Positions 3,028 through 50,470 of a DNA stretch of 64,000 nucleotides are shown here, piece by piece; within the stretch, counting starts at the first letter, position 1, and each line of letters starts with the position of its first letter. Made by a program: the position numbers and the translations under genes. The notes under the pieces were generated by a model, which had not been told where the DNA came from, made no database searches, and saw nothing but the letters and a program-made list of their open reading frames with translations. Origin of the DNA: Leisingera aquaemixtae (GTDB lineage: Bacteria > Pseudomonadota > Alphaproteobacteria > Rhodobacterales > Rhodobacteraceae). Location of the stretch: assembly GCF_019801145.1 (NCBI RefSeq), contig NZ_JAHVJQ010000004.1:186001-250000 (forward strand), written 5' to 3'.

Positions 3028-3229
3028 GCTCCCGCGCCTTGGCGCTGCATCAGGGACGCAGCACCAAGCCTTGGGCCGGGCGCCGCTGGTGCGGCGCAGC
3101 AAATTCCGTGCAGTTTCTTCTTTGCCGAAAATACTCCCGCCGGAGGCGCGCCGTGCGCCAGCACGGGGCCGCGCACAACGCCGCGTGGCGTGCTGGCATC
3201 AGCCAGCGGGCCATAGCGGGGGCGGGAGG
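3028..3229. repeat. Nested-palindrome intergenic repeat, copy 1
   Basis: Left end CTCCCGC (3029-3035), right end GCGGGAG (3222-3228). Inside are hairpins such as GCGCCGC-TGGT-GCGGCGC (about 3080-3097) and CCGTGC-GCCA-GCACGG. The minus strand reads GCGGCGCCCGGCCCAAGG, the core shared with the other copies. CGCGCCTTGG followed by CAAGCCTTGGGCC is closely matched in copy 6 at 35.7 kb. It lies between convergent genes. Confidence 0.7.
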
Positions 3230-3390
3230 TCTTTGCTGGCGCAGAATTTGCTGAGAAGCGGTTCAGGGCAGGTTTGCCCTGAACGCGCCTTGTCCATGTT
3301 AAAGCACCTGAAACCGCCTCAAGGGCAAGCGGCTGCGCCGCCGCGCTTTGCGCGGCCCTTGACCCGGCCTCAGTCGCGGAGGGCAAAAGA

Positions 3391-3418
3391 AAACCCGCCG
3401 CGTTGAGGCGGCGGGTTT
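3391..3418 (-). terminator. Rho-independent terminator of ilvD
   Basis: Perfect 11-bp stem AAACCCGCCGC/GCGGCGGGTTT around a 6-base loop. On the minus strand it is followed by TTTTCTTTT, so it serves ilvD; it may also stop read-through from the plus strand. Confidence 0.8.
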
Positions 3419-3443
3419 GAAACCAAAGTCAGGCTATTGCGCC

Positions 3444-5288
3444 TCAGTCTTCGTCCGGCAGCGCACGCACGGCGCCCTTGGCGGCGGAGGTGGCGAGCAG
3501 CGCATAGGCCTTCAGCGCCTTGGAGACCTTGCGCTTGCGCGGCTCGGCGGGTTTCCAGCCCTTGGCGTCCTGTTCCTCGCGGCGTGCCGCCAGGTCCTCG
3601 TCGGAGACAGCCAGATGGATCGTGCGGTTGGGGATGTCGATCTCGATGGTGTCGCCCTGGCGCACCAAGCCGATGGTGCCGCCTTCGGCCGCCTCGGGGG
3701 AGACATGGCCGATCGACAGGCCGGAGGTGCCGCCGGAGAAACGACCGTCAGTCAGCAGCGCGCAGGCTTTGCCCAGGCCCTTCGACTTCAGGTAGGAGGT
3801 CGGGTAGAGCATTTCCTGCATGCCCGGACCGCCACGCGGGCCTTCGTAGCGGATCACCACCACGTCGCCTTCCTTGACCTTGCCGGTCAGGATGTCGTTC
3901 ACCGCCGCATCCTGGCTTTCGCAGACATAAGCCGAGCCGGTGAACTTGAGGATGTGTTCATCGACGCCCGCGGTCTTCACGATGCAGCCTTCGCGGGCGA
4001 TGTTGCCGAACAGCACCGCCAGGCCGCCGTCCTGGCTGAAGGCGTGCTCCTTGGCGCGGATCACACCGTTTTCACGGTCGGTGTCCAGCTCTTTGTAGCG
4101 GTTGGCCTGAGAGAAGGCTTGCGTGGTGCGGACGCCGCCGGGGGCGGCCTTGAACAGCTCCTCGGCCTCCGGGTTGTTGGCGACCTTGATGTCCCATTTG
4201 GCAATCGCCTCGCCCATGGTCGAGGAGTGCACGGTGTGGCAGTCGTTGTGCAAGAGCCCTGCGCGGCTCAGCTCGCCCAGGATCGAGAAGATGCCGCCGG
4301 CACGGTGCACGTCCTCCATGTGGACGTTGTGGATGTTCGGAGCGACCTTGCACAGGCAGGGTACCCGGCGGCTGAGGCGGTCCATGTCGGACATGGTAAA
4401 GTCCACCTCGCCCTCATTGGCGATGGCCAGGAGGTGCAGCACGGTGTTGGTGGAGCCGCCCATGGCGATATCGAGGCTCATCGCGTTTTCGAAAGCTTCG
4501 AAAGTAGCGATCTCGCGCGGCAGCAGGCCCTTTTCCTCGTCCTGGTAGTGGCGCTTGGTGATCTCGACGATCTTGCGCCCCGCTTCAAGGAACAGGCCCT
4601 TGCGGTCGGCGTGGGTGGCGAGCGTCGAGCCGTTGCCCGGCAGCGCCAGGCCCAGGGCCTCGGCCAGGCAGTTCATCGAGTTGGCGGTGAACATGCCGGA
4701 GCAGGAGCCGCAGGTCGGGCAGGCGTTTTCCTCGATATGCTTCACCTGCTCGTCGGTGAACTTGTCATCCGCGGCGGCAACCATGGCATCCACCAGGTCG
4801 ATCTTTTTCATGTCCAGATCGGCGATGTCGATCTTGCCTGCTTCCATCGGGCCGCCGGAGACGAAGATCGCCGGGATGTTGAGGCGCATGGCGGCCATCA
4901 GCATCCCCGGAGTGATCTTGTCGCAGTTGGAGATGCAGACCATGGCGTCCGCACAGTGCGCGTTGACCATGTATTCGACGCTGTCGGCGATCACCTCGCG
5001 CGAGGGCAGCGAGTAGAGCATGCCGTCATGGCCCATGGCGATGCCGTCATCCACCGCGATGGTGTTGAACTCCTTGGCGACGCCGCCGGCCGCCTCGACC
5101 TCGCGGGCGACCATCTGGCCCAGGTCCTTGAGATGCACGTGGCCGGGCACGAATTGGGTGAAGGAGTTGACGATGGCGATGATCGGCTTGCCGAAATCAT
5201 CGTCCTTCATGCCGGTGGCGCGCCACAGTCCGCGCGCGCCCGCCATGTTGCGGCCATGGGTGGAGGTTCTGGATCGGTACTTTGGCAT
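3444..5288 (-). CDS. ilvD: Dihydroxy-acid dehydratase
   Basis: Dehydrates 2,3-dihydroxy-isovalerate and 2,3-dihydroxy-3-methylvalerate to the 2-oxo acids that precede valine and isoleucine, using an Fe-S cluster. The start at 5288 (MPKYRSRTS) has AAGGGA upstream and gives 614 residues, the normal length. The family's Fe-S cysteines are visible in [11 protein letters not shown] and in [18 protein letters not shown]. The C-terminal [12 protein letters not shown] segment is diagnostic of the IlvD/Edd family, and the N-terminal [17 protein letters not shown] favours IlvD over phosphogluconate dehydratase. It is a single gene with its own terminator; the other branched-chain genes are not here. 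Confidence 0.97.
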
Positions 5289-5421
5289 CAGGCTGGTTCC
5301 CTTAGTCTTTACCCTCAGGGACACGATTTGCGCAACAAAGGCAACCGGCCGGGGGGCTGTTCGGTAATTTTGGCGCAGATTGCGCCGGATTTCAGTGGCG
5401 AAATGTCTCTCGGGCTGTTTC

Positions 5422-6600: not shown

Positions 6601-6637
6601 GCGGGTTTTCCTTGGCGGCCGGGCAGGGTAGGGTGGC

Positions 6638-6679: not shown

Positions 6680-6704
6680 AAGACTTTTCTGACGGGCAGA
6701 GACA

Positions 6705-7265: not shown

Positions 7266-7301
7266 TGTGCTTCACTTGTGTATTTTCTCTGGACTGCCTA
7301 C

Positions 7302-7315: not shown

Positions 7316-7343
7316 ATTGAGTTTGCAGGATTTGGAGCCGGGA

Positions 7344-10122: not shown

Positions 10123-10977
10123 ATGCTGGACGATCCGAAGACACTCGTTTCTACAGAATGGCTTGCGGCCCATCTGAAGGACCCGGATCTTCGGGTGCTG
10201 GACGCATCATGGTATCTGCCGCAGCAGGAGCGCGACGCCAAGGCGGAGTATGAGGCCGCCCATATCCCCGGCGCGCGGTTCTTTGATATCGACGAGATTT
10301 CCGACAACCGCTCCGACTTGCCGCATATGGTGCCGCCGGTTGAAAAATTCATGTCCAAGCTGCGCGCCATGGGCGTCGGCGACGGCCACCAGGTGGTGGT
10401 CTACGACGGTGCCGGCCTGTTCTCGGCGGCCCGTGTCTGGTGGCTGTTCCGGCTGATGGGGCAGACCAATGTTGCGGTGCTGGACGGCGGCTTTCCGAAA
10501 TGGCAGGCCGAAGGCCATCCGGTCGAGGATCTGCCGCCGGTGATCCGCGACCGCCATATGACCGTGCGGGTGCAGAACCACATGGTGCGCGATGTGACCC
10601 AGGTCTCTGCCGCCGCCAAGCTGGGCGACCACGAAATCATCGATGCCCGCTCCGCCGAGCGATACCGCGGTGACGCGCCGGAGCCGCGCGAGGGGCTGCG
10701 GGCGGGCCATATTCCCGGCTCCCGCAATGTGCCTTTCGGCCAGGTGCTGAACGCGGATGGCACCATGAAGGACGCCGATGGCATCCGCGCCGCCTTTGAG
10801 GCCGCCGGCGTCGATCTGAGCAAACCTGCGATTACTTCCTGCGGATCGGGCGTTACCGCCGCCATCCTCAGCCTCGCCCTGGAGCGTCTCGGCAAGACCG
10901 ATCATTCGCTTTATGACGGGTCCTGGGTGGAGTGGGGTGCCTTCCCGACCCTTCCCGTTGCTACCGGAGAGAACTGA
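10123..10977 (+). CDS. sseA: 3-mercaptopyruvate sulfurtransferase
   Basis: Moves sulfur from 3-mercaptopyruvate to thiol or cyanide acceptors. 284 residues with two rhodanese domains (about 1-140 inactive, 160-284 catalytic). The active-site loop reads CGSGVTA, the six-residue loop of mercaptopyruvate sulfurtransferases rather than that of thiosulfate sulfurtransferase. The start at 10123 has GGAGG at 7-bp spacing. Its stop TGA overlaps the ATG of the following aminotransferase by one base, so the two are translationally coupled. The pairing makes sense because aspartate-type aminotransferases can convert cysteine to 3-mercaptopyruvate. Confidence 0.94.
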   Translation: MLDDPKTLVSTEWLAAHLKDPDLRVLDASWYLPQQERDAKAEYEAAHIPGARFFDIDEISDNRSDLPHMVPPVEKFMSKLRAMGVGDGHQVVVYDGAGLFSAARVWWLFRLMGQTNVAVLDGGFPKWQAEGHPVEDLPPVIRDRHMTVRVQNHMVRDVTQVSAAAKLGDHEIIDARSAERYRGDAPEPREGLRAGHIPGSRNVPFGQVLNADGTMKDADGIRAAFEAAGVDLSKPAITSCGSGVTAAILSLALERLGKTDHSLYDGSWVEWGAFPTLPVATGEN

Positions 10978-12161
10978 TGTTCGAGACCCTGAAACCCCAG
11001 CCCGCCGACAAGATCCTGGCGCTGATGCAGATGTTCCGCGACGACCCGCGCGCGGACAAGATCGACCTTGGCGTCGGCGTCTATAAGAACGCCGAGGGCG
11101 TCACCCCGGTGATGCGTGCCATCAAGGCGGCCGAGCACAAGCTGTGGGAAGAGCAGACCAGCAAGTCCTATGTCGGCCTGGCTGGCGACCCGGCCTATGC
11201 GGATGCGATGATCAAGCTGATCCTGGGCGATGCGGTTGCGCGTGAAAACATCGCGGCTGCTGCGACCCCCGGCGGCACCGGTGCAGTGCGCCAGGCGTTT
11301 GAGCTGATCAAGATGGCCAACCCCAAGGCGCGCGTCTTTGTGTCGGATCCGACCTGGCCGAACCATGTGTCGATCCTGAACTATGTCGGCATCGAGACCG
11401 TCGTCTACCGCTATTTCGACCGCGACACCCGCGGTGTGAACTTCGACGGCATGATGGAAGACCTGAAAGGCGCGCAGAAGGGCGACGTGGTGCTGCTGCA
11501 CGGCTGCTGCCACAACCCGACCGGCGCCAACCTCAACGAGGTGCAGTGGAAAGAGGTCATCGCGCTGTTGAACGAGCGCGGCCTGATCCCGATGATCGAC
11601 ATCGCCTATCAGGGCTTTGGCGACGGTCTGGAAGAAGACGCGCTGGGCGTGCGCCTGGTGGCCTCCAGCTGCCCCGAGGTGCTGATTGCGGCCAGCTGCT
11701 CCAAAAACTTCGGCATCTACCGCGAGCGCACCGGCCTGCTGATGGCGGTGTCCAACGATGCCTCGGCTCAGGCGCTGAACCAGGGCACCCTGGCGTTCCT
11801 GAACCGGCAGAACTACTCCTTTCCGCCGGATCATGGCGCCCGGCTGGTGACCATGATCCTGAACGACGATGCCCTTCGAACCGACTGGGCGGCAGAGCTG
11901 GAGGAAGTGCGCCTCGGCATGCTGGGCCTGCGCCAGCAGCTGGCGGATGAGTTGCAGCGCCTGACCGGCTCCGACCGGTTCAGCTTCATCGCCCAGCACC
12001 GCGGCATGTTCTCGCTCCTCGGCACCACGCCGGAGCTGGTCGAGAAGATGCGGGTCGACAACGGCATCTACATGGTCGGCGACAGCCGCCTGAATATCGC
12101 GGGCCTCAACGCAAATACCGTGCCGGTGCTGGCCAAGGCGATTGTCGACGCCGGCGTCTGA
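10977..12161 (+). CDS. Aspartate/aromatic aminotransferase, class I alpha
   Basis: PLP-dependent transfer of amino groups between aspartate or aromatic amino acids and 2-oxoglutarate. 394 residues. Landmarks of the AspC/TyrB branch: IDLGVGVYKN, the HGCCHNPTG segment, DIAYQGFGDGLEED, the PLP lysine in SCSKNFGIYRER, and R-G-M-F near the C-terminus. AspC and TyrB cannot be separated by eye, so no symbol is given. It is coupled to sseA (TGATG overlap), suggesting it may also supply 3-mercaptopyruvate from cysteine; that role is inference. A strong terminator follows at 12187. Confidence 0.93.
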   Translation: MFETLKPQPADKILALMQMFRDDPRADKIDLGVGVYKNAEGVTPVMRAIKAAEHKLWEEQTSKSYVGLAGDPAYADAMIKLILGDAVARENIAAAATPGGTGAVRQAFELIKMANPKARVFVSDPTWPNHVSILNYVGIETVVYRYFDRDTRGVNFDGMMEDLKGAQKGDVVLLHGCCHNPTGANLNEVQWKEVIALLNERGLIPMIDIAYQGFGDGLEEDALGVRLVASSCPEVLIAASCSKNFGIYRERTGLLMAVSNDASAQALNQGTLAFLNRQNYSFPPDHGARLVTMILNDDALRTDWAAELEEVRLGMLGLRQQLADELQRLTGSDRFSFIAQHRGMFSLLGTTPELVEKMRVDNGIYMVGDSRLNIAGLNANTVPVLAKAIVDAGV

Positions 12162-12235: not shown

Positions 12236-12345
12236 CGAGGGCAGGGCTCCCGCGCCTGCTGTGCACCCTGGCTGCGCCAAGCTCTTTGCAGGCTTGGGTG
12301 TGGCACCGCCGGCGCGGTGCGAGATGCCGCTTGACGCTAGGTCAT
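12236..12345. repeat. Nested-palindrome intergenic repeat, copy 2 (degenerate)
   Basis: Carries a CTCCCGCGCC end, a CCAAGC/GCTTGG stem, and the perfect hairpin GCACCGC-CGGC-GCGGTGC. A CCGCCGGCGCGGTGC stretch recurs in copy 7 at 39.4 kb. This is the one copy between codirectional genes, although it lies directly behind a terminator. It lacks the clear GGCCCAA core. Confidence 0.45.
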
Positions 12346-12426: not shown

Positions 12427-12684
12427 ATGACCCTCGCAAAATCCGCCCTCGCCGTGATCCTGTCCGCCGCCGTTGCCCTGCCGCTGGCCGCCCCCGCCTT
12501 TGCTGCAAACGGCGAGGTCATCGACCGGGTGGAGAACCGCGCCGACCGCCGGGAGAACCGCCGGGATGAAGCTGTCGATACCGGCGTCTGGGATGTGGTG
12601 GAGGACCATCTGGACCGCGCCGAAGACCGCCGCGACTACCGCGACCAGAAGGCGCCCAAGGTGATTGTTGTCCCCCAGGGCTGA
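12427..12684 (+). CDS. Small secreted Arg/Asp-rich hypothetical protein
   Basis: 85 residues. The first 26 are a textbook signal peptide (LAVILSAAVALPLAAPAFA-AN). The mature part of about 60 residues is highly charged, built from repeated RVENRADRRENRRDE-like and DHLDRAEDRRDYRDQ stretches, with a short hydrophobic end KVIVVPQG. It is probably helical and periplasmic. A ribosome site (TAGGAG) precedes the start at about 6 bp. I do not recognise a family. The 3' side meets amtB head-on with a repeat element and a terminator between. Confidence 0.7.
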   Translation: MTLAKSALAVILSAAVALPLAAPAFAANGEVIDRVENRADRRENRRDEAVDTGVWDVVEDHLDRAEDRRDYRDQKAPKVIVVPQG

Positions 12685-12772
12685 GCCCGGAACCGCGCCG
12701 CGGCAGCGGCGCCCGGCCCAACAGGGAGGGATCAACTCTTGATGATCCTGCACCTGGCGGGAGCCCCGCCGG
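12682..12772. repeat. Nested-palindrome intergenic repeat, copy 3
   Basis: The core GCGGCGCCCGGCCCAAC is at 12706-12722, and the right-hand GCGGGAG at 12757-12763 lies within GGCGGGAGCCCCGCC, itself a hairpin. The core is the same as the minus strand of copy 1. It lies between the convergent small secreted protein gene and amtB. Confidence 0.65.
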
Positions 12773-12827: not shown

Positions 12828-14162
12828 TCAGCTCAGAGAGAACTCGGGATAGGCTTCCATGCCCAGCTCCGCCATGTCCAGCCCGTTGACCTCGTCCTCT
12901 TCCTCAACCCGGATGCCGGTGGTGGCGCGCAGCACCATCCACACGACGGCAGAGGCTGCAACGGTGAACACACCCACTACGGCAATCCCGGTCAGCTGCT
13001 TCAGCAGGGTGGCATCGGGGTTCGACAGCACCACCGCAACGGTGCCCCAGATGCCGCAGAAAAGGTGCACCGGGATGGCGCCGACCACGTCGTCGATGCG
13101 CAGCTTGTCCAGCATCGGCACCGCAAACACTACGATCACGCCGCCGATGGCACCGATCAGGGTGGACAGGCCCAGGCCCGGGGTCAGCGGTTCAGCAGTG
13201 ATTGCCACCAGGCCGGCCAGCGCGCCGTTCAGGATCATGGTCAGGTCCGGTTTCTTGAACAGAAGCTGGGTCAGCACCAGCGCAGCCACGGCGCCGCCAG
13301 CTGCTGCGGCATTGGTGTTGGCGAAGATGCGGCTGATGTCTGCCACGTCGCCGATCGAGCCCATGGCCAGCTGCGAGCCGCCGTTGAAGCCGAACCAGCC
13401 CATCCACAGGATGAAGGTGCCAAGCGTGGCCAGCGCCAGGTTGGAGCCGGGCATCGGAATGGTCTTGCCGTCCTTGTACTTGCCGATGCGGGGGCCGAGG
13501 ATTAGCGCGCCGGTCAGTGCGGCCCAGCCGCCCACCGAATGCACCACGGTGGAACCTGCGAAATCCAGGAAGCCCATTTCCTCCAGGAAGCCGCCGCCCC
13601 ATTTCCAGCTGGCCTGGAACGGATAGATCACGGCGGTCAGGATGATGGTGAAGATCAGGAACGGCCACAGCTTGATGCGTTCCGCCAGGGTGCCCGACAC
13701 GATCGAGGCAGTGGCGGCGCAGAACATCAGCTGAAAGAAGAAATCCGACCCGGTGGAGGCATAGGAATAATCATCCGCACCTTCCGCGGTGATCCCCACC
13801 GCCTCCAGCACGCCGGGGCCAAAGACACCGGACAGGACGCCGTCGACGGCCCAGTTGCCCAGCGGGTACATCAGGTTGTAGCCAATCAGCCAGTAGAACA
13901 GCGCCGCCAGTGAAAACAGCGCCATGTTCTTGGTCAGCTGCATGGTCACGTTCTTGGAGCGCACCAGGCCGGCCTCGAGCATGGCAAAGCCCGCTGCCAT
14001 CCAGAACACCAGGCAGCCACCGATCAGGAACAGGAGCGAGTTCAGGATGAACACGGTGTCGGTTGCGGGGTTCACGCCCGGCGCCGGGCCGTCCTGGGCC
14101 AGCGCCAGGCCCGGAAGCGCGCTCAGCGCCAGGGCCGCAAGGGGGAGTTTCAGGGTCTTCAT
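12828..14162 (-). CDS. amtB: Ammonium transporter
   Basis: Conducts ammonium/ammonia across the inner membrane. 444 residues from the ATG at 14162 (MKTLKLPLAALALS), which has GGAGG upstream. A cleavable signal peptide is followed by about 11 membrane segments. The two conserved pore histidines are visible in VVHSVGGWAALTG and in VHLFCGIWGTVAVV, and the Phe-gate region is in the GFAMLEAGLVRSKN stretch. It is the second gene of the classic glnK-amtB operon, 26 bp after glnK. GlnK blocks the channel when nitrogen is plentiful. Confidence 0.97.
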   Translation of the reverse strand: MKTLKLPLAALALSALPGLALAQDGPAPGVNPATDTVFILNSLLFLIGGCLVFWMAAGFAMLEAGLVRSKNVTMQLTKNMALFSLAALFYWLIGYNLMYPLGNWAVDGVLSGVFGPGVLEAVGITAEGADDYSYASTGSDFFFQLMFCAATASIVSGTLAERIKLWPFLIFTIILTAVIYPFQASWKWGGGFLEEMGFLDFAGSTVVHSVGGWAALTGALILGPRIGKYKDGKTIPMPGSNLALATLGTFILWMGWFGFNGGSQLAMGSIGDVADISRIFANTNAAAAGGAVAALVLTQLLFKKPDLTMILNGALAGLVAITAEPLTPGLGLSTLIGAIGGVIVVFAVPMLDKLRIDDVVGAIPVHLFCGIWGTVAVVLSNPDATLLKQLTGIAVVGVFTVAASAVVWMVLRATTGIRVEEEDEVNGLDMAELGMEAYPEFSLS

Positions 14163-14188
14163 TAGTCTTTCCTCCATGCCGGGCGCGC

Positions 14189-14527
14189 TCACAGCGCCTC
14201 GAGATTGGTTTCGCCGGTGCGCACCCGCAGGGCCTGTTCAACATCCAGGACGAATATCTTGCCGTCGCCGATCTTGCCGGTGCGGGCGGTTTCGGAGATC
14301 GCGCTGACGGCCTGTTCGGCCTGATCGGCGGGCACCACCAGCTCCAGCTTCAGTTTCGGCACGAAATTCACTTCGTATTCCGCGCCGCGGTAAATTTCGG
14401 TATGGCCCGCCTGCGCGCCAAAGCCCTTGATTTCAGTGACCATCAGCCCGCTCACGCCAAGACCGGTCAGCGCCTCGCGGACCTCGTCCAGCTTGAAGGG
14501 CTTGATGGCGGCTATGATCATTTTCAT
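14189..14527 (-). CDS. glnK: Nitrogen regulatory protein P-II
   Basis: 112-residue PII signal protein that senses 2-oxoglutarate and ATP/ADP and reports nitrogen status to AmtB and other targets. The T-loop reads KGFGAQAGHTEIYRGAEYEV, with the uridylylated Tyr51 in YRGAEY. The C-terminal TGKIGDGKIFV motif matches the PII signature. Because it is linked to amtB, the GlnK name is preferred over GlnB. The upstream region contains a dyad (14650-14668) where an NtrC-type activator could sit. Confidence 0.95.
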   Translation of the reverse strand: MKMIIAAIKPFKLDEVREALTGLGVSGLMVTEIKGFGAQAGHTEIYRGAEYEVNFVPKLKLELVVPADQAEQAVSAISETARTGKIGDGKIFVLDVEQALRVRTGETNLEAL

Positions 14528-14796: not shown

Positions 14797-17013
14797 ATGG
14801 CACAAGGATCCGGGCGCAAGCCTTTGGTGGCTGAGAAACGCTATTCCGCAAGCGGCAAGGGCAAGGCCTCTGCTGCCAAGAAGCCTGCGCGCAAGAAGCC
14901 CGCGCGCAAGGCAAAGAAGCCCGGTCTGCTGGGGCGGCTGTTCACCCGCAAGAAGACGCGCGCCAGGCCTGCAGCGAAAAAACGCGGCCTCATCGGCTGG
15001 CTGCTGGCGCCGTTTGCCTTTGCCTTCCGGCTGGTCTGGGGCTTTACCTGGCGTGTCGGCATGGTGGCCTGTGCGCTGGTGGGCCTGGCCGTGGCTTTCC
15101 AATATGCCCGGCTGCCGGAGGTTTCCGCCTATCTGGACGGCCGTGCCCGCGGCTCTGTCACCATTCTGGACCGCGAGGGCGAGGTCTTTGCCTGGCGCGG
15201 CGACCAGTTCGGCGGCGTGGTGACGGCGGACACGGTCTCGCCGCATCTGAAAAACGCGATTGTGGCGACCGAAGACAAGCGGTTCTACCGCCACCTCGGC
15301 CTGTCGCCGCGCGGTATCGCCAGCGCCGTGCGCATCAACCTGAGCGAAGGGCGCGGGCCGCTGTCGGGCCACGGCGGTTCCACCATCACCCAGCAGGCGG
15401 CAAAGCTGCTTTGCCTCGGCAAGATCTATGACCCGGCTGAGTGGAAGAGCGAAAGCGCCTATGAGGCCGACTGCCGCAAGGGTTCGCTCTGGCGCAAGGG
15501 GACCGAGGCGATCTTTGCCCTGGCGATGGAAGCCAAATACACCAAGGACGAAATCCTCTCGATCTACATGAACCGCGCCTATATGGGCGGCGGCGCCTAT
15601 GGGGCGGAGGCCGCAGCGCAGCGGTATTTCGGCAAGTCAGCAAACCAGCTGAACCCGGCAGAGGGCGCAATGCTGGCGGGTCTGCTGACCGCGCCCTCGA
15701 CGCTGGCGCCCACAAACAATCTGCAGCGCTCGCAGGACCGGGCCGCCACCGTGCTGCGGCTGATGCAGGAACAGGGCTACCTGACCACGGCGGAGATGCA
15801 GAAATACCAGGACAACCCGGCAGTGCTGAGCGAGGCCGCGGCCGCGCGGGCGGGCGGCTACTTCGCCGACTGGGTGATGGACAGCATTCCGGACTTCCTG
15901 GGCGACCAGACCACTGAGGATGTGGTGATCCGCTCCACCATGGACCAGCGGCTGCAGGCCGCTGCGGAAGACGCGCTGAAGTACGTGTTCGAGAACAAGG
16001 TCCGCGAGGGGTCCAAGGCGCAGGCGGCGATTGTGGTGATGAGCGCAGACGGCGCTGTGCGCGCCATGGTGGGCGGGCGCAAGACCCGCGTCTCCGGTGT
16101 GTTCAACCGCGCCACCCAGGCCAAGCGGCAAACCGGGTCGGCCTTCAAGCCCTTTGTCTATGCCACCGCGCTGGAGCTGGGCTATTCGCCTTACGACCGG
16201 GTGCTGGATGCGAAATACTGCCTGAACATACCCGGCTCCGGCCAGTGGTGCCCCGACAACTATACCCGCAAGTTCTATGGCGAGGTGACCTTGGCGCGGG
16301 CGCTCAGGGATTCGCTGAACGTCCCGGCGGTGAAGATTTCGGAGGCGGTCGGGCGCGACAAGGTGAGCCGCGTGGCCCGGGATTTCGGCATCGACAGCGA
16401 CCTGGCTGCCGGTCCGGCGCTGGCGCTGGGCGCGTCCGAGAGCTCGCTTCTGGAAATGACCGGCGCCTATGCCGGCATCCTCAACGGCGGCTCGTCGGTG
16501 ACGCCTTACGGGGTGACCGAGCTGAAGCTTGTGGAGGACAACGAGGCGCTGATGGGCGCCAGCGGCGGCATCGGCGAGCGGGTGATCCGCACAGAAGCAG
16601 CGCAGCAGCTGGTCTGGATGATGGAGAAGGTGATTGCCGGCGGCACCGGCCAGCGGGCGCAGATCCCGGGCTGGCAGGCGGCTGGCAAATCCGGCACCAC
16701 TTCGGCCGCCAAGGATGCCTGGTTCATCGGCTTCACCGCCGATTACGTGGCGGGTGTCTGGATGGGCTATGACGACAACACGCCGCTCTCCGGCGTGACC
16801 GGCGGCGGCCTGCCCGCCGAGATCTGGCGCGAAACCATGGTGAGGGTGCATGACGGACTGGAGCCGAAGCCGCTGCCGATGCTGGAGCCCGCACCGATCG
16901 CACCGCCGCCGCAGCAGACCCGCCGCGAACGCCGCCGACGCCAGGGGCCGCAGCTTGGCAAGGAACTGGGCCGCGCGGTGGACAATATCCTGCGCGATAT
17001 TCTGGGCAACTGA
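14797..17013 (+). CDS. Class A penicillin-binding protein (transglycosylase/transpeptidase)
   Basis: Polymerises glycan strands and cross-links peptides of peptidoglycan in the periplasm. 738 residues from the ATG at 14797 (AGGAA upstream). Residues 1-62 form a Lys/Ala/Arg-rich cytoplasmic tail with a KKPARKKPARKAKK run; one membrane span lies at about 66-102. The GT51 domain has the catalytic EDKRFYRH (Glu159) and GGSTITQQ. The transpeptidase domain has S448-A-F-K451, S506-L-N508 and KSGTT. Two features are unusual: an insertion after TITQQ with Cys206 and Cys226, and Cys475/Cys485 in the transpeptidase domain, which could form disulfides. The C-terminus ends in a Pro/Arg-rich stretch. Confidence 0.93.
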   Translation: MAQGSGRKPLVAEKRYSASGKGKASAAKKPARKKPARKAKKPGLLGRLFTRKKTRARPAAKKRGLIGWLLAPFAFAFRLVWGFTWRVGMVACALVGLAVAFQYARLPEVSAYLDGRARGSVTILDREGEVFAWRGDQFGGVVTADTVSPHLKNAIVATEDKRFYRHLGLSPRGIASAVRINLSEGRGPLSGHGGSTITQQAAKLLCLGKIYDPAEWKSESAYEADCRKGSLWRKGTEAIFALAMEAKYTKDEILSIYMNRAYMGGGAYGAEAAAQRYFGKSANQLNPAEGAMLAGLLTAPSTLAPTNNLQRSQDRAATVLRLMQEQGYLTTAEMQKYQDNPAVLSEAAAARAGGYFADWVMDSIPDFLGDQTTEDVVIRSTMDQRLQAAAEDALKYVFENKVREGSKAQAAIVVMSADGAVRAMVGGRKTRVSGVFNRATQAKRQTGSAFKPFVYATALELGYSPYDRVLDAKYCLNIPGSGQWCPDNYTRKFYGEVTLARALRDSLNVPAVKISEAVGRDKVSRVARDFGIDSDLAAGPALALGASESSLLEMTGAYAGILNGGSSVTPYGVTELKLVEDNEALMGASGGIGERVIRTEAAQQLVWMMEKVIAGGTGQRAQIPGWQAAGKSGTTSAAKDAWFIGFTADYVAGVWMGYDDNTPLSGVTGGGLPAEIWRETMVRVHDGLEPKPLPMLEPAPIAPPPQQTRRERRRRQGPQLGKELGRAVDNILRDILGN

Positions 17014-17015: not shown

Positions 17016-17134
17016 GGCCTGCATCCCGGCGGGCTCCCGCCCGGCGCCGCACCCGGCGGTGCGCCTGGCCCAACGGGAGCGCAGCATTGGCTATGCTGCC
17101 GCGGCGGGCGGGAGCCCGCCGGGCTGCAAGGGCC
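17016..17134. repeat. Nested-palindrome intergenic repeat, copy 4 (best preserved)
   Basis: A 17-bp perfect inverted repeat, CCCGGCGGGCTCCCGCC at 17025-17041 and its complement at 17107-17123, encloses two smaller hairpins: GGCGCCGCAC/GTGCGCC (one bulge) and GCAGCAT-TGGCT-ATGCTGC. The core GCGCCTGGCCCAACGG is at 17061-17076. The whole can fold as a cloverleaf-like cruciform. It lies between the convergent PBP and mlaC genes. Confidence 0.8.
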
Positions 17135-17202: not shown

Positions 17203-17799
17203 TCAGCTCAGCCGCTCCAGCTCCGCGATCAGCGCGTTGATGTCGCCCTTGTTGCGGTCCAGGATCGCGCCGATCTCGGTGCGTTCAGTCAGCAGCAGGT
17301 TCACACCCTCGATGAACATGTTGAAGAACAGGTCCCGGCCGGAGCGGTCGGAGACCAGGAAGGTCACTTCGAACGGCGACTGGCCCTTGAGGTAGGCGAT
17401 GGTGCTCACCTCATACCACTTCTTCACCCGCTTAACGCCGGTCACTTCCAGCTTGCCGCCGATGAATTCGCGGAAGCGTTTTCCGTACTTGCGCGAGATG
17501 TAGCCCTGGAACGCCTTGGAGAAGGCCTTCTTCTGGGCCGGAGACGCCCGGCGGCCGTCCGCTCCCAGCGCGTAGGCTGCGATATAGGAGGTGTCGCTGT
17601 AGCGCTGGAAGATCCGCTCGAAGTCGCGGAACATCGCGCTCTCGCTCTTGCCGGAGGCGATCACCCGGTTGATGTCGCCGACCAGGCTGTTGATCAGCGT
17701 GCTTGCGCTGTTCTCGGTCAGCGCCCACAGTGCCTGCGGCGCAGCGGCCAGCGCAGCACCGCCAGCGGCGAGCCTGGTCAGGAATTTGCGGCGGTCCAT
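17203..17799 (-). CDS. mlaC: MlaC-like phospholipid-binding protein (Ttg2D family)
   Basis: 198 residues; periplasmic carrier that shuttles phospholipids between outer-membrane MlaA and the inner-membrane MlaFEDB transporter. It starts MDRRKFLTRLAAGG, a likely Tat signal peptide (RRKFL) cut near residue 27. The body shows the Ttg2 pattern: RDFERIFQRYSDTSYIAAYALG, YGKRFREFIGG, then the VTFLVSDRSGRDLFFNMFIEGVNLL region. It follows mlaA with a 2-bp gap, so they form one operon; mlaFEDB are not in this window. Tat export of MlaC, if real, would be an alphaproteobacterial variation. Confidence 0.9.
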   Translation of the reverse strand: MDRRKFLTRLAAGGAALAAAPQALWALTENSASTLINSLVGDINRVIASGKSESAMFRDFERIFQRYSDTSYIAAYALGADGRRASPAQKKAFSKAFQGYISRKYGKRFREFIGGKLEVTGVKRVKKWYEVSTIAYLKGQSPFEVTFLVSDRSGRDLFFNMFIEGVNLLLTERTEIGAILDRNKGDINALIAELERLS

Positions 17800-35680: not shown

Positions 35681-35845
35681 GGTGCCCCCGCGCCTTGGCC
35701 GCAGCATCGCAGATGCCGCAGCAAGCCTTGGGCCCGGCCCCGTGCTGGCGCACGGCGCGCGCCACGAAGCGGCGCCTGGCCCAACGGAAGCGGGTCAATC
35801 TGCGATTGGCCCGGGACGGGCGGGAGCCTTGCGGTCCGCCCGTGC
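35681..35845. repeat. Nested-palindrome intergenic repeat, copy 6
   Basis: CGCGCCTTGG, then CAAGCCTTGGGCC, then hairpin CCGTGC-TGGC-GCACGG, then core GCGGCGCCTGGCCCAACGG (35769-35787), GCGGGAG (35820-35826), and an outer hairpin ACGGGCGG/CCGCCCGT. The order parallels copy 1. It lies between the convergent aldolase and LysR genes. Confidence 0.75.
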
Positions 35846-43644: not shown

Positions 43645-44130
43645 ATGGACCATGTGGATTTTATCACCCAGCAATGGGGGCAGGAGCGGCCGGACCTGGA
43701 TGTGACGGCCATGGGAGTGATCGGCAGAGTGGCCAGGCTGTACTTGGCCTATCAGCGCGAGATGCATAAGACATTTGCGGAATTCGGGCTGAACGCGGCC
43801 AAATTCGACGTGCTGGCCACGCTGCGCCGGTCCGGGGCGCCTTACACGCTGTCGCCGGGCGATCTGCTGAAGGCGACGATGGTGGCGTCCGGCACCATGA
43901 CCAACCGCATCGACCGGCTGGAGGCGGACGGACTGGTCAAGCGCGAGGTGAACCCGGAGGACAGCCGCAGTTTCCTGGTCGGGCTGACGGAAGAAGGCTT
44001 TGCCCTGATCGACCGGGCCGTCGCAGCCCATGTTGAAACTCAGACACGGCTGCTGAGCGGGATGAGCGCTCAGGAGGTCGAGACCTTCAAAGCGCTTCTG
44101 AGCAAGGCGCAGCTTTCGGCTGACAGCTGA
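43645..44130 (+). CDS. MarR-family transcriptional regulator
   Basis: 161 residues. Winged-helix MarR fold: LNAAKFDVLATLRRSGAPYTLSPGDLLKATMVASGTMTNRIDRLEADGLVKREVNPEDSRSFLVGLTEEG holds the recognition helix and wing (EDSRSFLV in place of DRRxxxL). It likely represses itself and the divergent EamA permease through the paired palindromes and responds to a small molecule exported by the permease. Confidence 0.94.
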   Translation: MDHVDFITQQWGQERPDLDVTAMGVIGRVARLYLAYQREMHKTFAEFGLNAAKFDVLATLRRSGAPYTLSPGDLLKATMVASGTMTNRIDRLEADGLVKREVNPEDSRSFLVGLTEEGFALIDRAVAAHVETQTRLLSGMSAQEVETFKALLSKAQLSADS

Positions 44131-44262: not shown

Positions 44263-45255
44263 TTAAACCAGCCCGGCTTCTTCCAGCAGGTGCCGGACGT
44301 TGGTTTCGGGGCGCGGGCCGATATGGCGGATGACTTCGCCTGCACAGATGCAGCCCATGCGGGCGCAGGTTTCCATGCTGCGGCCAGTCGCCAAGCCGTA
44401 CAGGAAGCCGGCAGCAAACTGGTCGCCGGCCCCGGTCGCATCCACCGGCACGATGGTTTCGACCGGCACGTCGACGCGCGTGCCATCATTCAGCACGGTC
44501 ACGCCGTCGCCGGACCGGGTGCAGACCACCAGCGGACAGATCGCGGCGGTTTTGGCCATTGCCTCTTCCAGGTCGCTGGTTTCGAACAAGGCGCAGATTT
44601 CGTCCTGGTTGCCGATCACGAAATCCAGCTCGTTGCCGATCAGGTTCAGGAAATCGGCCCGGTGGCGCTCGACGCAGAACGGGTCGGAGATCGAAATGCC
44701 AACTTTGCCGCCGCCTTCACGGCAGTCGCGGGCCGCTTCCAGAAAGGCGGTCTTGCCCTTGTCCTTGTCGAACAGATAGCCCTCCAGGAACATGATCTGC
44801 GCGTTGCCGGCCACGTCCTGGGGCACGTCGGCGGAACTCAGTTCCGACGAAATGCCAAGGTAGGTGTTCATTGAACGCTCACCGTCCGGCGAGACAAAGA
44901 TCATCGACCGCGAGGTCGGCATCTCGCCGTCCGCAACCGGCGGATTCACAAAGCCAACGCCCTCGTTGTTCATCGCATCCGCGTAGAAACTTCCCAGCGA
45001 GTCGTCACGGACCCGGCCGATGAAGGCGGCCTGGAGCCCCAGCGCACCGGCGCCGGCGATGGTGTTGGCGACCGAGCCGCCCGGAGTCATAACCCGGTTT
45101 CCCATTGCCGCATAGAGATCCTCGCAGCGGTCGCGCTCAATGAGCTGCATGATGCCTTTTTCGATGCCTTGCTCGGCCAGGAAACTGTCCTCGCACTGGG
45201 CGATCACATCGACGACGGCATTGCCGATTCCGACGAGCTGGTAGGTTTTGGTCAT
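44263..45255 (-). CDS. PfkB-family sugar/adenosine kinase
   Basis: 330 residues, with GAGGAGG upstream. The sequence follows the adenosine-kinase-like branch: YQLVGIGNAVVDVIAQ at the start, TPGGSVANTIAGAGALG, and the catalytic DATGAGDQFAAGFLYGLATG anion hole with Asp near residue 260. It could phosphorylate adenosine, ribose or a related nucleoside. It stands alone. Confidence 0.9.
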   Translation of the reverse strand: MTKTYQLVGIGNAVVDVIAQCEDSFLAEQGIEKGIMQLIERDRCEDLYAAMGNRVMTPGGSVANTIAGAGALGLQAAFIGRVRDDSLGSFYADAMNNEGVGFVNPPVADGEMPTSRSMIFVSPDGERSMNTYLGISSELSSADVPQDVAGNAQIMFLEGYLFDKDKGKTAFLEAARDCREGGGKVGISISDPFCVERHRADFLNLIGNELDFVIGNQDEICALFETSDLEEAMAKTAAICPLVVCTRSGDGVTVLNDGTRVDVPVETIVPVDATGAGDQFAAGFLYGLATGRSMETCARMGCICAGEVIRHIGPRPETNVRHLLEEAGLV

Positions 45256-45356: not shown

Positions 45357-46001
<645 letters not shown>

Positions 46002-46148: not shown

Positions 46149-46165
46149 AAAATCGGATTGGGCCA

Positions 46166-47035: not shown

Positions 47036-47201
47036 ACAGGCGATGAAGCAGGCCGGGAAGGGTAGGGCGGGCAACCCTCTGAGCTTCGTATCGCCTGCGC
47101 GCTTCCTCGCGCTCGATTTCATGCGGGGCCAAGGGGCGCCGCTGGCTTTCCCAGCGGTCCAGTCCCAGGGTGATCAGAACGAACCAGTCATAACTCAGCA
47201 T
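46959..47201 (-). CDS. Small basic hypothetical protein overlapping the Ada-like gene
   Basis: 80 residues. Starts MLSYDWFVLITLGLDRWE, followed by charged helix LAPHEIEREEARRRYEAQRV and a Pro/Arg-rich tail. AAGGAG lies 7 bp before the ATG, a near-ideal ribosome site, which is why I accept it although the last 77 bp overlap the Ada-like gene tail-to-tail. It shares its upstream region, including a palindrome, with the divergent YafY regulator, so it is a plausible target of that regulator. The function is unknown. Confidence 0.6.
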   Translation of the reverse strand: MLSYDWFVLITLGLDRWESQRRPLAPHEIEREEARRRYEAQRVARPTLPGLLHRLFSRRRAYLRPPPPPPARPQKQASRV

Positions 47202-47242
47202 GGGTTTTCTCCTTTTTCTGAGAGGCAGAAAACCAGAGGTCT

Positions 47243-47262
47243 GCTGACATCCTGTTGTCAGC
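47243..47262. promoter_or_regulatory. Palindrome between small gene and YafY-type regulator
   Basis: GCTGACA-N6-TGTCAGC (7-bp exact arms) in the 104-bp divergent gap, 43 bp before the regulator start. It is a candidate site for the adjacent HTH-WYL protein. Confidence 0.5.
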
Positions 47263-47305
47263 GGCTTGTGTTAAGGTGGCAGCAGATTGTCACTGGAGCC
47301 TGCCC

Positions 47306-47995: not shown

Positions 47996-48135
47996 AACCG
48001 GGTCCTTCTGCGGGTTTTGCGCGGTATTCCGCCGAACCGGATTTCCCTTCCCTTGAGAACGCCGCGCAGCATCACGATATTCGTGCCGACTGCCGGGCGC
48101 CGCCCGGACCTTAGAAAGCAGAAGGCAATTTGAAA

Positions 48136-48792
48136 ATGCAGATGAAACTCACCACGGCTGGTATTGTCGCCGCAGCACTGGGCCTGAGCGCCTGTACCGA
48201 CCCCGCAACCATCGGCACTCCGGGCAGCAACACCCAGAAGGGCGCGGTTCTGGGCGGTATCATCGGTGCCGGCGTTGGCGCGATTGCCAACGACTCCGAC
48301 CGTGGGCTGGGGGCTGCGACCGGCGCGCTGGTCGGGGCCGCTGCAGGCAGCGTGATCGGCAACCAACTGGACGCGCAGGAGCGCGAGCTGCGCCAGAACC
48401 TGTCGAATGACGATATCACCATCGTCAACACCGGCGACCGGCTGATCCTGTCCTTCCCGAATGACTTGACCTTTGCCACCGACAGCGCGGCAATCTCGCC
48501 GGCGGTGCAGGGCGATCTGCGCCGCGTGGCCAACAGCCTGGTGCGCTACCCCAACAGCACCATCCAGGTGATCGGCCATACCGACAGCGATGGCGACGCG
48601 GGCTACAACCAGGGCCTGTCAGAGCGCCGCGCCAACGCAGTGGCCAGCGAAATTGCAGCCGGCGGCGTGCCTTACCACCGCATGCGCATCATCGGCCGCG
48701 GCGAGGAGCAGCCGGTGGCCTCGAACCTGACGCCGGAGGGCAAGGCCCGCAACCGCCGCGTCGAGGTGGTGGTGATCCCGCAGGCTGCCTGA
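48136..48792 (+). CDS. OmpA-family lipoprotein (YiaD/PAL-like)
   Basis: 218 residues. Lipoprotein signal with lipobox LSAC (Cys near residue 20). A glycine-zipper segment (GAVLGGIIGAGVGAIAND, then GAATGALVGAAAGSVIG) may lie in or on the membrane. The C-terminal OmpA domain (about 105-218) binds peptidoglycan: DLTFATDSAAISPAVQGDLRRVANSL, VIGHTDSDGDAGYNQGLSERRANAV, and KARNRRVEVVVIP. The start could also be the ATG two codons on. It closes with a strong terminator. Confidence 0.93.
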   Translation: MQMKLTTAGIVAAALGLSACTDPATIGTPGSNTQKGAVLGGIIGAGVGAIANDSDRGLGAATGALVGAAAGSVIGNQLDAQERELRQNLSNDDITIVNTGDRLILSFPNDLTFATDSAAISPAVQGDLRRVANSLVRYPNSTIQVIGHTDSDGDAGYNQGLSERRANAVASEIAAGGVPYHRMRIIGRGEEQPVASNLTPEGKARNRRVEVVVIPQAA

Positions 48793-48815
48793 TCTGGCTC
48801 TGCCGGCATGAATTG

Positions 48816-48845
48816 CAGCCCGCCCCGCAAGGGGCGGGCTGTTTT
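48816..48845 (+). terminator. Terminator of the OmpA-family lipoprotein gene
   Basis: Perfect 11-bp stem CAGCCCGCCCC/GGGGCGGGCTG with loop GCAA and a following TTTT, 23 bp after the stop. Confidence 0.9.
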
Positions 48846-48966
48846 CGTTCTGCTACAGCAGCTTTACGCAACGCTGCACATTGCTTGCGCGGGCATGGCT
48901 GTTTCATGCTGGAGGCGGCCTCTTACATGATAGGGGCAACACAGACGCGAACAGAAGGAACTCCCC

Positions 48967-49509
48967 ATGGCTGACCCTGTCCTGCTGACCATTTCCGGCT
49001 CGCTGCGCCGTGAGGCCACCAACCGCAAGCTTCTGGCCGAAGCCGCGCGGGTGTTCGGCCCGGCCACTGTCGTGGAGGCCGATCTGAACCTGCCGCTGTA
49101 TGATGGCGATGTAGAAGCAGCGGAGGGGATCCCGCCTGCCGTGCAGGTGCTAGCAGATCAGATCGCGGCTGCGGATGCGGTGGCGATCTCCACCCCGGAA
49201 TACAACAAGGGGCCGTCGGGCGTGCTGAAGAATGCGCTCGACTGGGTCAGCCGCACCGAGGGCAGCCCCTGGGCGGACAAGCCGGTGGCGGTGATGTCAG
49301 CGGCGGCAGGCCGGGCCGGGGGCGAGCGCGCGCAGATGATCCTGCGCGGCTTCCTGGTGCCCTTCCAGCCGCGGCTGATCACCGGACCTGAGGTGCATCT
49401 TGCCGGATCCAGCAAGGAATTTGACGAGCGCGGACGGCTGACGAGCGACCAGTACGAGGCCACGCTGACCAAGCTGATGCAGAAGCTGCGGGAAAACATC
49501 AGCCGCTGA
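48967..49509 (+). CDS. NADPH-dependent FMN reductase
   Basis: 180 residues. Flavodoxin-like fold of the NADPH-dependent FMN reductase/chromate reductase family: SGSLRREATNRKLLAEA binds the FMN phosphate, and STPEYNKGPSGVLKNALDWVSR is the family signature near the isoalloxazine. It reduces quinones, FMN or chromate with NAD(P)H. It is followed after 36 bp by the MaoC-like gene. Confidence 0.92.
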   Translation: MADPVLLTISGSLRREATNRKLLAEAARVFGPATVVEADLNLPLYDGDVEAAEGIPPAVQVLADQIAAADAVAISTPEYNKGPSGVLKNALDWVSRTEGSPWADKPVAVMSAAAGRAGGERAQMILRGFLVPFQPRLITGPEVHLAGSSKEFDERGRLTSDQYEATLTKLMQKLRENISR

Positions 49510-49545
49510 ACTTGCCACCTGGCGGGGCGCGGCTAATGTGGCGGC

Positions 49546-50367
49546 ATGAGTAACGACACCGCCTCCGCCCCCGCGCTGCTTGTAACGGACATGATGGACC
49601 CGGCCCGCGCAGCCGCCTTTCAGGCTGCGCTGGGGCTGACGCCGCAGGTTGCGGCAGGCAGCCGGCTGCCGCCCTTCTTTCATCAGCTTTACTTCTGGAC
49701 GCCGCTGCCGCCGGGTGCACTGGGCCGCGACGGTCACCCCAAGGTCGGCGGAGCCGGGCTGATCCCGGACATGGGCCTGCCGCGGCGCATGTGGGCTGGC
49801 GGGCGGTTGCGGTTTCAGGCGCCTTTGCGGGCCGGCATCGCGGCAGAGAAAACCTCCGTGCTGGAAAAGGCGGAGCGGAAAACCGGCAGAACCGGGCCCT
49901 TGGGGATTGTGACGCTGCGCCATGAGATCCGGCAGGAGGGCGCGCTGTGCCTGACCGAATGGCATGATCTGGTCTATCGCGAGGACCCCGATCCGGCAGC
50001 GCCGAAACCTGTGCCGCCAGAAGCGCGTACCGACGAGACGGAAGCGCGGGAGGTGTCGTTCAGCTCAACCCTGCTGTTCCGTTACTCGGCGCTGACCTTC
50101 AACGGGCACCGGATCCACTATGACCTGGACTACGCCCGCGATGTTGAGGGTTACGAAGGTCTGGTGGTGCACGGACCGCTGCTGGCGCAGCACCTGATGC
50201 TGCTGGCAGAGGAACTGATGGGGCCACTGGCGGAGTTTTCGTTCCGGGCGTCGTCGCCGCTGATGCATTCCGAAAGCGCCGTTTTGTGCCGCAACGGCCC
50301 GGACCTGTGGGTGCGCGGACCGGACGGGCGGCAGTGCATGAGCGCAACGGCAGCCCCCAAGCTATGA
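49546..50367 (+). CDS. MaoC-like hydratase (COG3777, mesaconyl-C4-CoA/itaconyl-CoA hydratase-like)
   Basis: 273 residues with two hot-dog halves. The C-terminal half has the hydratase signature FRYSALTFNGHRIHYDLDYARDVEGYEGLVVHGPLLAQHLM, with the Asp/His pair expected for R-specific hydratases (DYA... / HGPL). The N-terminal half carries LPPFFHQLYFW and GGRLRFQAPL as in HTD2/MeH. It may hydrate a branched C5 unsaturated acyl-CoA. No pathway partner is adjacent, so the substrate is open. Confidence 0.83.
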   Translation: MSNDTASAPALLVTDMMDPARAAAFQAALGLTPQVAAGSRLPPFFHQLYFWTPLPPGALGRDGHPKVGGAGLIPDMGLPRRMWAGGRLRFQAPLRAGIAAEKTSVLEKAERKTGRTGPLGIVTLRHEIRQEGALCLTEWHDLVYREDPDPAAPKPVPPEARTDETEAREVSFSSTLLFRYSALTFNGHRIHYDLDYARDVEGYEGLVVHGPLLAQHLMLLAEELMGPLAEFSFRASSPLMHSESAVLCRNGPDLWVRGPDGRQCMSATAAPKL

Positions 50368-50371
50368 ATCG

Positions 50372-50470
50372 GAGCGCTCCTGGGCCCAAGGGTGCCCTGA
50401 GCCGGGCAGATTAGCGGCTTGGGCGTAGTGCTGCTGCGCGGCGACTGGCGCCGCCCTTGGCCCGTCAAAG
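50372..50470. repeat. Nested-palindrome intergenic repeat, copy 8 (diverged)
   Basis: Contains TGGGCCCAAGGGTGCCC at 50381-50397, a CTGGCGCCGCCCTTGGCCC stretch, and several short complementary arms. It shares GCCCAAGG and GGCGCC pieces with the other copies but lacks GCGGGAG. It lies between the convergent MaoC-like and FAD oxidoreductase genes. Confidence 0.45.

Follow-up and report, generated by a model that had tools for sequence, protein, structure and literature searches.

A family of two-hairpin units with strand-polar folding at convergent gene ends in Leisingera and related genera

The window analysed here, a stretch of 64,000 nucleotides from Leisingera aquaemixtae (contig NZ_JAHVJQ010000004.1, positions 186,001 to 250,000), contains ten copies of an intergenic unit of 83-97 nt, which were located at seven places by two covariance models, R1 and R2. 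Each unit consists of two hairpins in the order hp2-GGCCCAA-hp1-GCGGGAG, and some units form mirror pairs, in which the CTCCCGC/GCGGGAG ends are inverted relative to each other. R1 derives from the strand opposite to the functional one and from 18 of the 20 core matches located between genes, the remaining two lacking the flanking motif; R2 was built on the functional strand from 56 of 67 units, leaving out 11. Since seven of the ten units in the window are among the model-building sequences, the scores listed for these seven are partly circular.

3019..3103, minus (functional strand): left unit of site 1 (3.0 kb), hp2 then hp1; R2 68.4 bits, R1 79.2 bits
3142..3238, plus: right unit of site 1; R2 32.4 bits, E 0.003 (1.6-Mb search), outside the training sets
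12237..12326, minus: unit with a GGCTNNGCC-type apex; R2 39.2 bits, E 1.5e-4 (1.6-Mb search), outside the training sets
12689..12771, plus: unit flanked by + gene 12427-12684 and - gene 12828-14192; R2 66.6 bits
17038..17122, plus: unit between + gene 14827-17013 and - gene 17203-17799; R2 55.2 bits
35677..35764, minus: left unit of the 35.7-kb pair; R2 61.2 bits
35753..35836, plus: right unit of the 35.7-kb pair; R2 64.5 bits
39351..39437, minus: left unit of the 39.4-kb pair; R2 59.7 bits
39429..39518, plus: right unit of the 39.4-kb pair; R2 42.2 bits
44171..44260, plus: weak unit, possibly degenerate, flanked by + gene 43645-44130 and - gene 44263-45255; R2 33.4 bits, E 0.002 (1.6-Mb search), outside the training sets

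A preliminary description of this DNA had listed eight elements, seven of them between convergent genes. Seven of the eight places hold members of the family, while the one at 50.37-50.47 kb falls below reporting with both models and is not a member. The count of seven convergent places out of eight was reproduced with independent gene calls, made by a hexamer-based caller and not taken from annotation; by these calls the seven real sites comprise six convergent ones and a tandem one at 12.24 kb, between + genes 10977-12161 and 12427-12684. At site 1, 14 nt separate the GCGGGAG-side end of the left unit from the stop codon of + gene 2188-3006, and the two units make up a widely spaced pair, which other genera retain between the orthologous genes. 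The 17.0-kb unit, whose neighbours according to Pfam are a penicillin-binding protein (+ gene) and MlaC (- gene), forms arms of 32 nt with 91% complementarity; it is the only unit detected there in the window, and a pair is found at 8 of 37 traced orthologous junctions.

Exact matches to a GGCGCC-N-GGCCCAA core had also been claimed, and those at 12708, 35771 and (inverted) 3071 are indeed exact, while those at 17060 and 39453 carry one mismatch, as does another at 35728. With up to two mismatches, the short core is found 15 times in the window compared to 10.6 expected, a number reached in 13 of 100 shuffles and thus not beyond chance, so that the case rests on the full unit. In the whole genome there are 21 exact occurrences of the 13-mer GCGCCYGGCCCAA and 5 of its reversed control. 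Of the marks of a MITE (strong identity among copies, inverted ends, target-site duplications), inverted ends are present in pairs, and the hp1 stems vary freely between copies, the left arms of 78 units comprising 57 distinct 6-nt sequences.

A covariance-model search of the Leisingera genome, which the preliminary description had proposed, demonstrated that the repeat family is real, with at least 82 matches (E up to 1) at 69 sites, of which 40 are convergent, 25 tandem, 3 divergent and 1 within a gene. All copy counts are lower bounds, as scoring covered 150 of 8634 candidates in this genome and 27-74 per genome elsewhere. The preference for convergent junctions was borne out by 40 of 69 sites genome-wide against 129 of 772 junctions in a background counted in 800 kb (p 6e-15); inside these 800 kb alone, 14 of 20 sites are convergent. 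All but one of the 82 units lie outside called genes, and units are single at 56 sites and paired at 13, 12 of the latter in one order. Units without a detectable core were dropped from the analyses below (3 of 82 own units, 8 of 110 from relatives, and 1 of 63 and 5 of 145 in further sets).

We examined pairing in 56 of the 67 units with at least 38 bits, the other 11 having been excluded by eye for a longer or odd hp1. In this set 91.2% of cells are paired, and the covariation score, for a structure taken from the very alignment tested, is 0.368, compared to 0.115 after shuffling (0 of 500 as high) and 0.04-0.08 after sliding. In 79 of the 82 units, the hp1 arms match their own partner at 0.87 and a swapped partner at 0.34; the former value is raised by hp1 having been picked by its pairing, and shuffled cores score 8.0 against 12.4. 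The arms of hp1 thus coevolve. Moreover, folding is preserved by evolution on one strand only. MFE prefers the strand opposite TTGGGCC by 70 to 7 in 79 own units and by 90 to 8 in 102 units of relatives; relative to dinucleotide shuffles, the z values of the two strands are -3.0 and -1.7, the functional strand having the lower value for 70 of 79 own units and, after the same correction, for 58 of 62 units from five other genera, which were retrieved with R2, a model whose functional-strand build is a possible source of bias for polarity there. Stem mismatches on the TTGGGCC strand comprise 27 A.C and 5 G.T (composition-corrected p 5e-4), and 150 sampled element-free 3' ends displayed no strand bias (p 0.46). 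For hp2, mismatches on the TTGGGCC strand are 9 G.T and 2 C.A, opposite in sign to hp1, and the energy difference between strands is not significant for own units (p 0.10) nor for those of relatives (p 0.93), with p 0.03 in the CTCCCGCC subset; a polarity of hp2 was therefore rejected.

The earlier suggestion of a roseobacter family agrees with its presence in all 20 other genomes of the genus that were searched. With one genome per genus across the bacterial family, own included, 25 of 159 genomes have matches, and 16 have at least three. Around site 3.0 kb, a unit is retained at 31 of 37 traced orthologous junctions from Leisingera to Ruegeria, with stem sequences rewritten and pairing intact. 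In a set of 80 loci, 43 have a match. Paralogues and orthologues are not independent in the counts given here. Paired sites in other genera have the same mirror order in 13 of 13 cases.

At convergent junctions the units sit close to stop codons: in 42 of 48 units, no more than 40 nt separate the GCGGGAG-side end from the opposing stop, compared to 19.6 expected and at most 30 in 2000 random placements; the same holds for 28 of 36 units in other genera. Among the 30 own tandem units, 14 have the other orientation, with no opposing stop directly next to them. Using a simple scan for a hairpin followed by a T-run, we found an intrinsic terminator for 4 of 32 genes reading a single convergent unit in sense, for 15 of 32 partner genes and for 81 of 176 element-free genes, a shortage for the sense reader with p 3e-4 and 0.005. 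The corresponding numbers in other genera are 2 of 20 for the sense reader and 5 of 20 for the partner, and at the pairs of nine Ruegeria records and one MAG, with junctions of 150-194 nt, 2 of 10 in one direction and 0 of 10 in the other. For sense readers at tandem sites the shortage is absent, 4 of 9 having a terminator compared to 95 of 339 where no unit is present (p 0.28). Orthologous junctions provide weak evidence of terminator exclusion: for the + gene at 17.0 kb a terminator is found at 1 of 9 junctions with a unit and 13 of 28 without (p 0.11), or 1 of 9 and 12 of 22 when restricted to junctions of at least 60 nt (p 0.045), for the - gene at 10 of 12 and 13 of 19, and at site 3.0 the exclusion is not significant in either direction. 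We also considered the unit as a replacement for the intrinsic terminator of the adjacent gene, A, and rejected this (17 of 43 against 87 of 220).

In the explanation that we favour, to which we assign a probability of roughly 45%, the unit would be a polar structured RNA element lacking a U-tract, which forms or guards transcript 3' ends. A polymerase arriving from one side, either from gene B of a convergent junction or as antisense transcription at a tandem one, would read hp2 and then GGCCCAA-hp1-GCGGGAG, and the last hairpin would either stop transcription or block 3' exonucleases after Rho-type termination further on. The transcript would then end just short of where the opposing gene A has its stop codon, and antisense RNA would therefore be kept from entering A; paired units could serve both directions. 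What the computation shows is the family, covariation in both of its hairpins, a fold kept on one strand, the setting immediately outside an opposing stop codon, the scarcity of intrinsic terminators for sense readers of single convergent units, and the preservation of site 3.0 across genera; we infer action as RNA rather than as single-stranded DNA, a role in termination or protection, and the Rho and exonuclease step. Among tandem units with a functional strand antisense to both neighbours, 26 of 27 have the same polarity, which fits a barrier to antisense transcription and not a plain role in an mRNA 3' UTR, and is also compatible with a single-stranded DNA element. The bidirectional terminator proposed earlier survives in part: the terminator shortage suggests a terminator-like role at convergent sites, but a single unit is polar, and only pairs could be bidirectional.

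The absence of a terminator shortage at tandem sites weakens this explanation and strengthens a different one, namely that the units are REP/BIME-like DNA repeats, relics of single-stranded mobile elements of which one strand folded for a transposase, and which became fixed mostly at gene ends, where insertion is harmless. Single-stranded DNA, like RNA, pairs G.T better than A.C, polarity is independent of gene context, copies are many and dispersed, with mirror pairs and other repeat modules nearby, and 81 of 82 units are extragenic, much as in REPs. According to PMC3733652, REP repeats are likewise extragenic, palindromic and multi-copy, with units in opposite orientation, are located at 3' ends at mostly tandem or convergent sites and are thought to act as RNA, and CGTC REPs are said to do without a dedicated transposase as well. 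Yet REPs measure 20-40 bp, far from a two-hairpin unit of 83-97 nt whose fold is kept on one strand and whose hp1 stem covaries with little sequence identity. The REP/MITE mobility and the RAYT/IS200-like gene raised by the preliminary description found no support: the genome has no match to PF01797 (5 of 14 control genomes do), and a Y1 transposase occurs in 6 of 21 genomes of the genus, own included, whereas the unit family occurs in 21 of 21. The GTAG tag is not enriched (3 of 82 units, 4.2 expected), and CGTC, in 40 of 82 units compared to 30.8 expected, sits at varying places within the unit, whereas a REP tag marks one end of the palindrome. The age of site 3.0, kept across several genera with its stems rewritten yet paired, and the one-directional terminator shortage at convergent sites also argue against such relics, which we regard as a serious but rather unlikely origin.

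It is improbable that the units act as DNA cruciforms or protein-bound double-stranded sites absorbing supercoils where convergent transcription meets. The convergent preference would suit this, as would the cloverleaf noted earlier, since a closed four-way cloverleaf is predicted on both strands for the two Ruegeria pairs that were folded; but a double-stranded function treats both strands alike and does not predict a fold kept on one of them, in pairs too (43 of 50), and single units are commoner than pairs. A family of stand-alone, trans-acting small RNAs, conceivable for structured, polar and conserved units, is very improbable given the tight spacing to the opposing stop codon, the dozens of copies per genome and the lack of an evident shared motif, by eye, in the 55 nt upstream of hp2.

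Among known systems, the Cuckoo RNAs of Rhodobacteraceae are also repeated hairpin RNAs of Alphaproteobacteria, but have CCUCCUCCC loops that are absent from the unit consensus. Intrinsic (Rho-independent) terminators, including bidirectional ones, share the GC-rich hairpin at gene ends, and convergent genes reading a unit in sense mostly have no other terminator; the unit differs in its two hairpins, its conserved GGCCCAA and GCGGGAG, its setting against the opposing stop codon, and in having no U-tract, the first nine positions after GCGGGAG being 44-65% C and 15-24% T (132 of 145 units). Stem-loops that protect 3' ends after Rho-dependent termination would likewise leave an RNA ending in a stable hairpin; they are not known to constitute one conserved sequence-structure family. 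Rfam 15 gave no match in the window at the gathering score, with matches far below threshold at a Ruegeria pair and site 3.0. A literature search covering few subscription papers yielded no description of this family, nor do the available portions of PMC12306157, PMC3733652, PMC4809877 and PMC1590033 contain one.

One could also speculate, and we hold this to be doubtful, that the units are dedicated polar barriers outside stop codons that exclude antisense transcription without U-tracts, with mirror pairs forming a cloverleaf at convergent junctions, as the lineage's alternative to intrinsic terminators and possibly read by a protein recognising GGCCCAA/GCGGGAG. If the RNA-element explanation is correct, a repeat-like family would have a testable direction of action, and it would indicate how some GC-rich bacteria end convergent transcripts without U-tracts and keep antisense RNA off coding regions. 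The polarity test used here, which compares G.T with A.C mismatches and the fold z of the two strands, could be extended to other REP-like families of disputed function.

An attC-like reading of GCCCAAC/GTTGGGC, based on the familiar attC consensus, was dropped on account of the partner arm GCGGGAG, which is not the complementary core. We likewise rejected a third hairpin formed by GCGGGAG with the flank on its 3' side: complementarity exceeds that of shuffled flanks, yet own flanks (4.55) do no better than swapped ones (4.45), so the two do not coevolve and their pairing reflects the shared C-rich tail.

On the functional strand, each unit of the family consists of a GC-rich hairpin, hp2 (GCGCCGC..GCGGCGCC), the motif GGCCCAA, another hairpin, hp1, with a freely variable stem sequence, and then GCGGGAG and a C-rich tail; the opposite strand is here called the TTGGGCC strand. 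Exact copies of the core GCGCCYGGCCCAA number 21 in the 4.88 Mb source genome of Leisingera aquaemixtae, compared with 5 for a reversed control. From 18 of the 20 intergenic core matches in an 800 kb sample (C4:1-400000, C4 being NZ_JAHVJQ010000004.1 with the window at 186001-250000, and C1:1-400000) we built an alignment, A1, and a covariance model, R1, which gave at least 82 matches in the genome (E up to 1; 150 of 8634 candidates scored). A second model, R2, was built from 56 units taken on the strand opposite to that of R1. The preliminary description had placed elements at eight positions in the window; seven of these hold units according to R2 (10 units, 3 of them absent from the training sets of both models), while the one at 50.4 kb was not reached by R2. 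The stretch 50368-50486 is a GC-rich, palindromic convergent junction that looks family-like by eye and matches neither model. The listed units are spread unevenly over the contigs (C4 24, C2 19, C1 16, C6 11, C3 6, C5 3, C13 2 and C9 1, with none on the other contigs among the matches listed), possibly reflecting a difference between the chromosome and extrachromosomal replicons.

The fold shows covariation. In the alignment, 91.2% of cells are paired and both sides changed in 109 cells (56/67 units), with a covariation score of 0.368 against 0.115 when shuffled (0/500) and 0.04-0.08 with slid partners, for a structure that came from the same alignment it was scored on. For the arms of hp1 the match is 0.87 with their own partner and 0.34 with swapped ones; the hairpin was selected by its pairing, for which shuffled cores score 8.0 and real ones 12.4. 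Back-to-back pairs of units are found at 13 of the 69 own sites among the matches listed, 12 of them in one order, as are all 13 pairs in other genera. Pairs in Ruegeria records have a single central palindrome common to both units, and the two that were folded form a closed cloverleaf on both strands; the three window pairs gave other, more complex folds. By eye, own and Ruegeria units have two kinds of hp1, one with apex ATC-NNN-GAT and foot CTCCCGCC, the other with apex GGCT-NN-GCC and foot CTCCCGCG, and Ruegeria pairs combine a CTCCCGCC half with a GGCT-type half.

A double-stranded DNA function would preserve the palindrome equally in the two strands, but the fold is kept unequally. Mismatches in the hp1 stem, read on the TTGGGCC strand, are A.C in 27 cases and G.T in 5 (p 5e-4 after composition correction). 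By RNA folding energy, the functional strand is the lower one in 70 versus 7 of 79 own units, and in 90 versus 8 of 102 units of relatives. The dinucleotide-corrected z is -3.01 versus -1.74 in own units (functional strand lower in 70/79) and -2.68 versus -0.88 in five other genera (58/62), the latter units coming from R2, which was built on the functional strand itself; R1, from which the own-genome and the syntenic results derive, had been made from the opposite strand and should thus not favour this outcome. Element-free 3' ends had no such asymmetry (150 sampled, p 0.46). We favour the interpretation that the units are RNA 3'-end elements. Its main rival is an element that acts as single-stranded DNA, with only one of its strands active, since G.T is a better pair than A.C in DNA as well.

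The 69 own sites among the matches listed comprise 40 convergent, 25 tandem and 3 divergent junctions and 1 site inside a gene, on a background of 129 convergent, 514 tandem and 129 divergent junctions in the 800 kb; the preference for convergent junctions noted in the preliminary description is thus upheld (40/69 versus 129/772, p 6e-15), and divergent junctions are depleted (p 0.003). The 800 kb alone gave 14 convergent sites out of 20, and five other genera 28 convergent, 20 tandem and 2 divergent among 50. The GCGGGAG-side end lies within 40 nt of the opposing stop codon in 42 of 48 own convergent units, where 2000 random placements of these 48 gave 19.6 expected and a maximum of 30, a spacing that speaks against the single-stranded DNA rival. 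The same holds for 28/36 convergent units in other genera; such a stop lies within 40 nt of that side in 12 of the 16 own tandem units with a functional strand antisense to their genes (the other 14 have the opposite orientation), and in 54/82 listed own units overall.

A shortage of intrinsic terminators at convergent junctions also tells against the single-stranded DNA element. Among single-unit convergent junctions at least 60 nt long, a terminator was found for 4/32 sense readers, the genes transcribing the unit in the functional sense, and for 15/32 partners, the opposing genes whose stop the unit abuts, compared with 81/176 at element-free convergent junctions (p 3e-4 and 0.005 for the comparisons). 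As the intergenic stretch searched is identical for the two directions, the difference is directional. Paired own sites had a terminator in 4/16, and other genera showed the same trend in small numbers (sense readers 2/20, partners 5/20, pairs 1/16). Orthologous junctions gave a mixed picture. At the single-unit site near 17.0 kb, the orthologous + gene had a terminator in 1/9 junctions with its unit and 13/28 without (p 0.11), or 1/9 and 12/22 when junctions below 60 nt were excluded (p 0.045); the - gene did not differ (10/12 with, 13/19 without). Junctions orthologous to the paired site near 3.0 kb gave no significant terminator difference (8/28 vs 4/9; 20/30 vs 4/7). Pairs in junctions of 150-194 nt, from nine records of Ruegeria plus a MAG, came with terminators in only 2/10 and 0/10 for the two directions. 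Tandem junctions had no shortage (sense readers 4/9, versus 95/339 without a unit, p 0.28) and are no help to the RNA 3'-end interpretation.

As an RNA 3'-end element, a unit transcribed from one side would yield hp2 first and hp1 second, and the RNA would end just short of the opposing stop codon, either through termination by the hairpin itself or through trimming to the hairpin after Rho-dependent release; that there is no U-tract favours trimming or a protein partner. Polarity is present in 43/50 paired and 84/90 single units, and in convergent and both tandem contexts, including 26/27 tandem units antisense to both neighbours; polarity in these last units suggests that the common task is to bar antisense transcription from a gene's 3' end.

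The paired site near 3.0 kb is flanked by two genes:
2188-3006, sulfotransferase
3444-5246, ilvD-type dehydratase

Of 37 junctions traced here from 80 syntenic loci, 31 hold at least one unit and 27 a pair, in loci spanning Leisingera, Pseudophaeobacter, Phaeobacter, Tritonibacter, Epibacterium and Ruegeria records; four of the six junctions lacking a unit are in Ruegeria records. The stem sequences have been rewritten with pairing kept, and retention of the site across genera again weighs against the single-stranded DNA element. Turnover is faster near 17.0 kb, with a unit in 13/37 traced junctions. The roseobacter repeat surmised earlier was recovered in 20/20 other genomes of the genus (at least 38-74 matches each, E up to 0.001) and in 25/159 genomes of the family (one per genus, own included), 16 of which have three or more. 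R1 matched 0/24 genomes of other families, and R2, among 142 genomes of the class, matched only our own and one of the same family. A Y1-type transposase is absent from our genome and present in 6/21 genomes of the genus.

No Rfam family matches the units. A REP survey (PMC3733652) reports comparable locations, and possible roles as RNA, for tagged repeats of 20-40 bp. The main text of the RepRanger survey (PMC12306157) does not name Rhodobacter, Ruegeria, Phaeobacter or Leisingera, and that of a Ruegeria pomeroyi sRNA paper (PMC4809877) does not mention palindromes or "convergent". We class the family as a REP-like, terminator-like element with a sequence, structure and polarity of its own.

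Further repeat modules near units form a BIME-like mosaic (window 3240-3444 and C4 about 395539-395718): in the 800 kb, TTTGCTGAGAAG has 9 loose matches, of which 4 lie no more than 200 nt from a unit; a GGGGCAGGTNTGCCC-type hairpin occurs 5 times (3 close to a unit), and CCCTTGACCCG occurs 4 times (1 close to a unit). An ARAGORN-predicted tRNA-Glu (C6:34830-34916, minus strand) overlaps a unit and may be a spurious prediction caused by the hairpins. Window 12427-12684 (+), which has a unit on either side, encodes an 85-aa protein without a Pfam match, whose N-terminus is signal-like and whose body is charged and rich in D/E/R; several Leisingera loci have similar proteins in the corresponding position.
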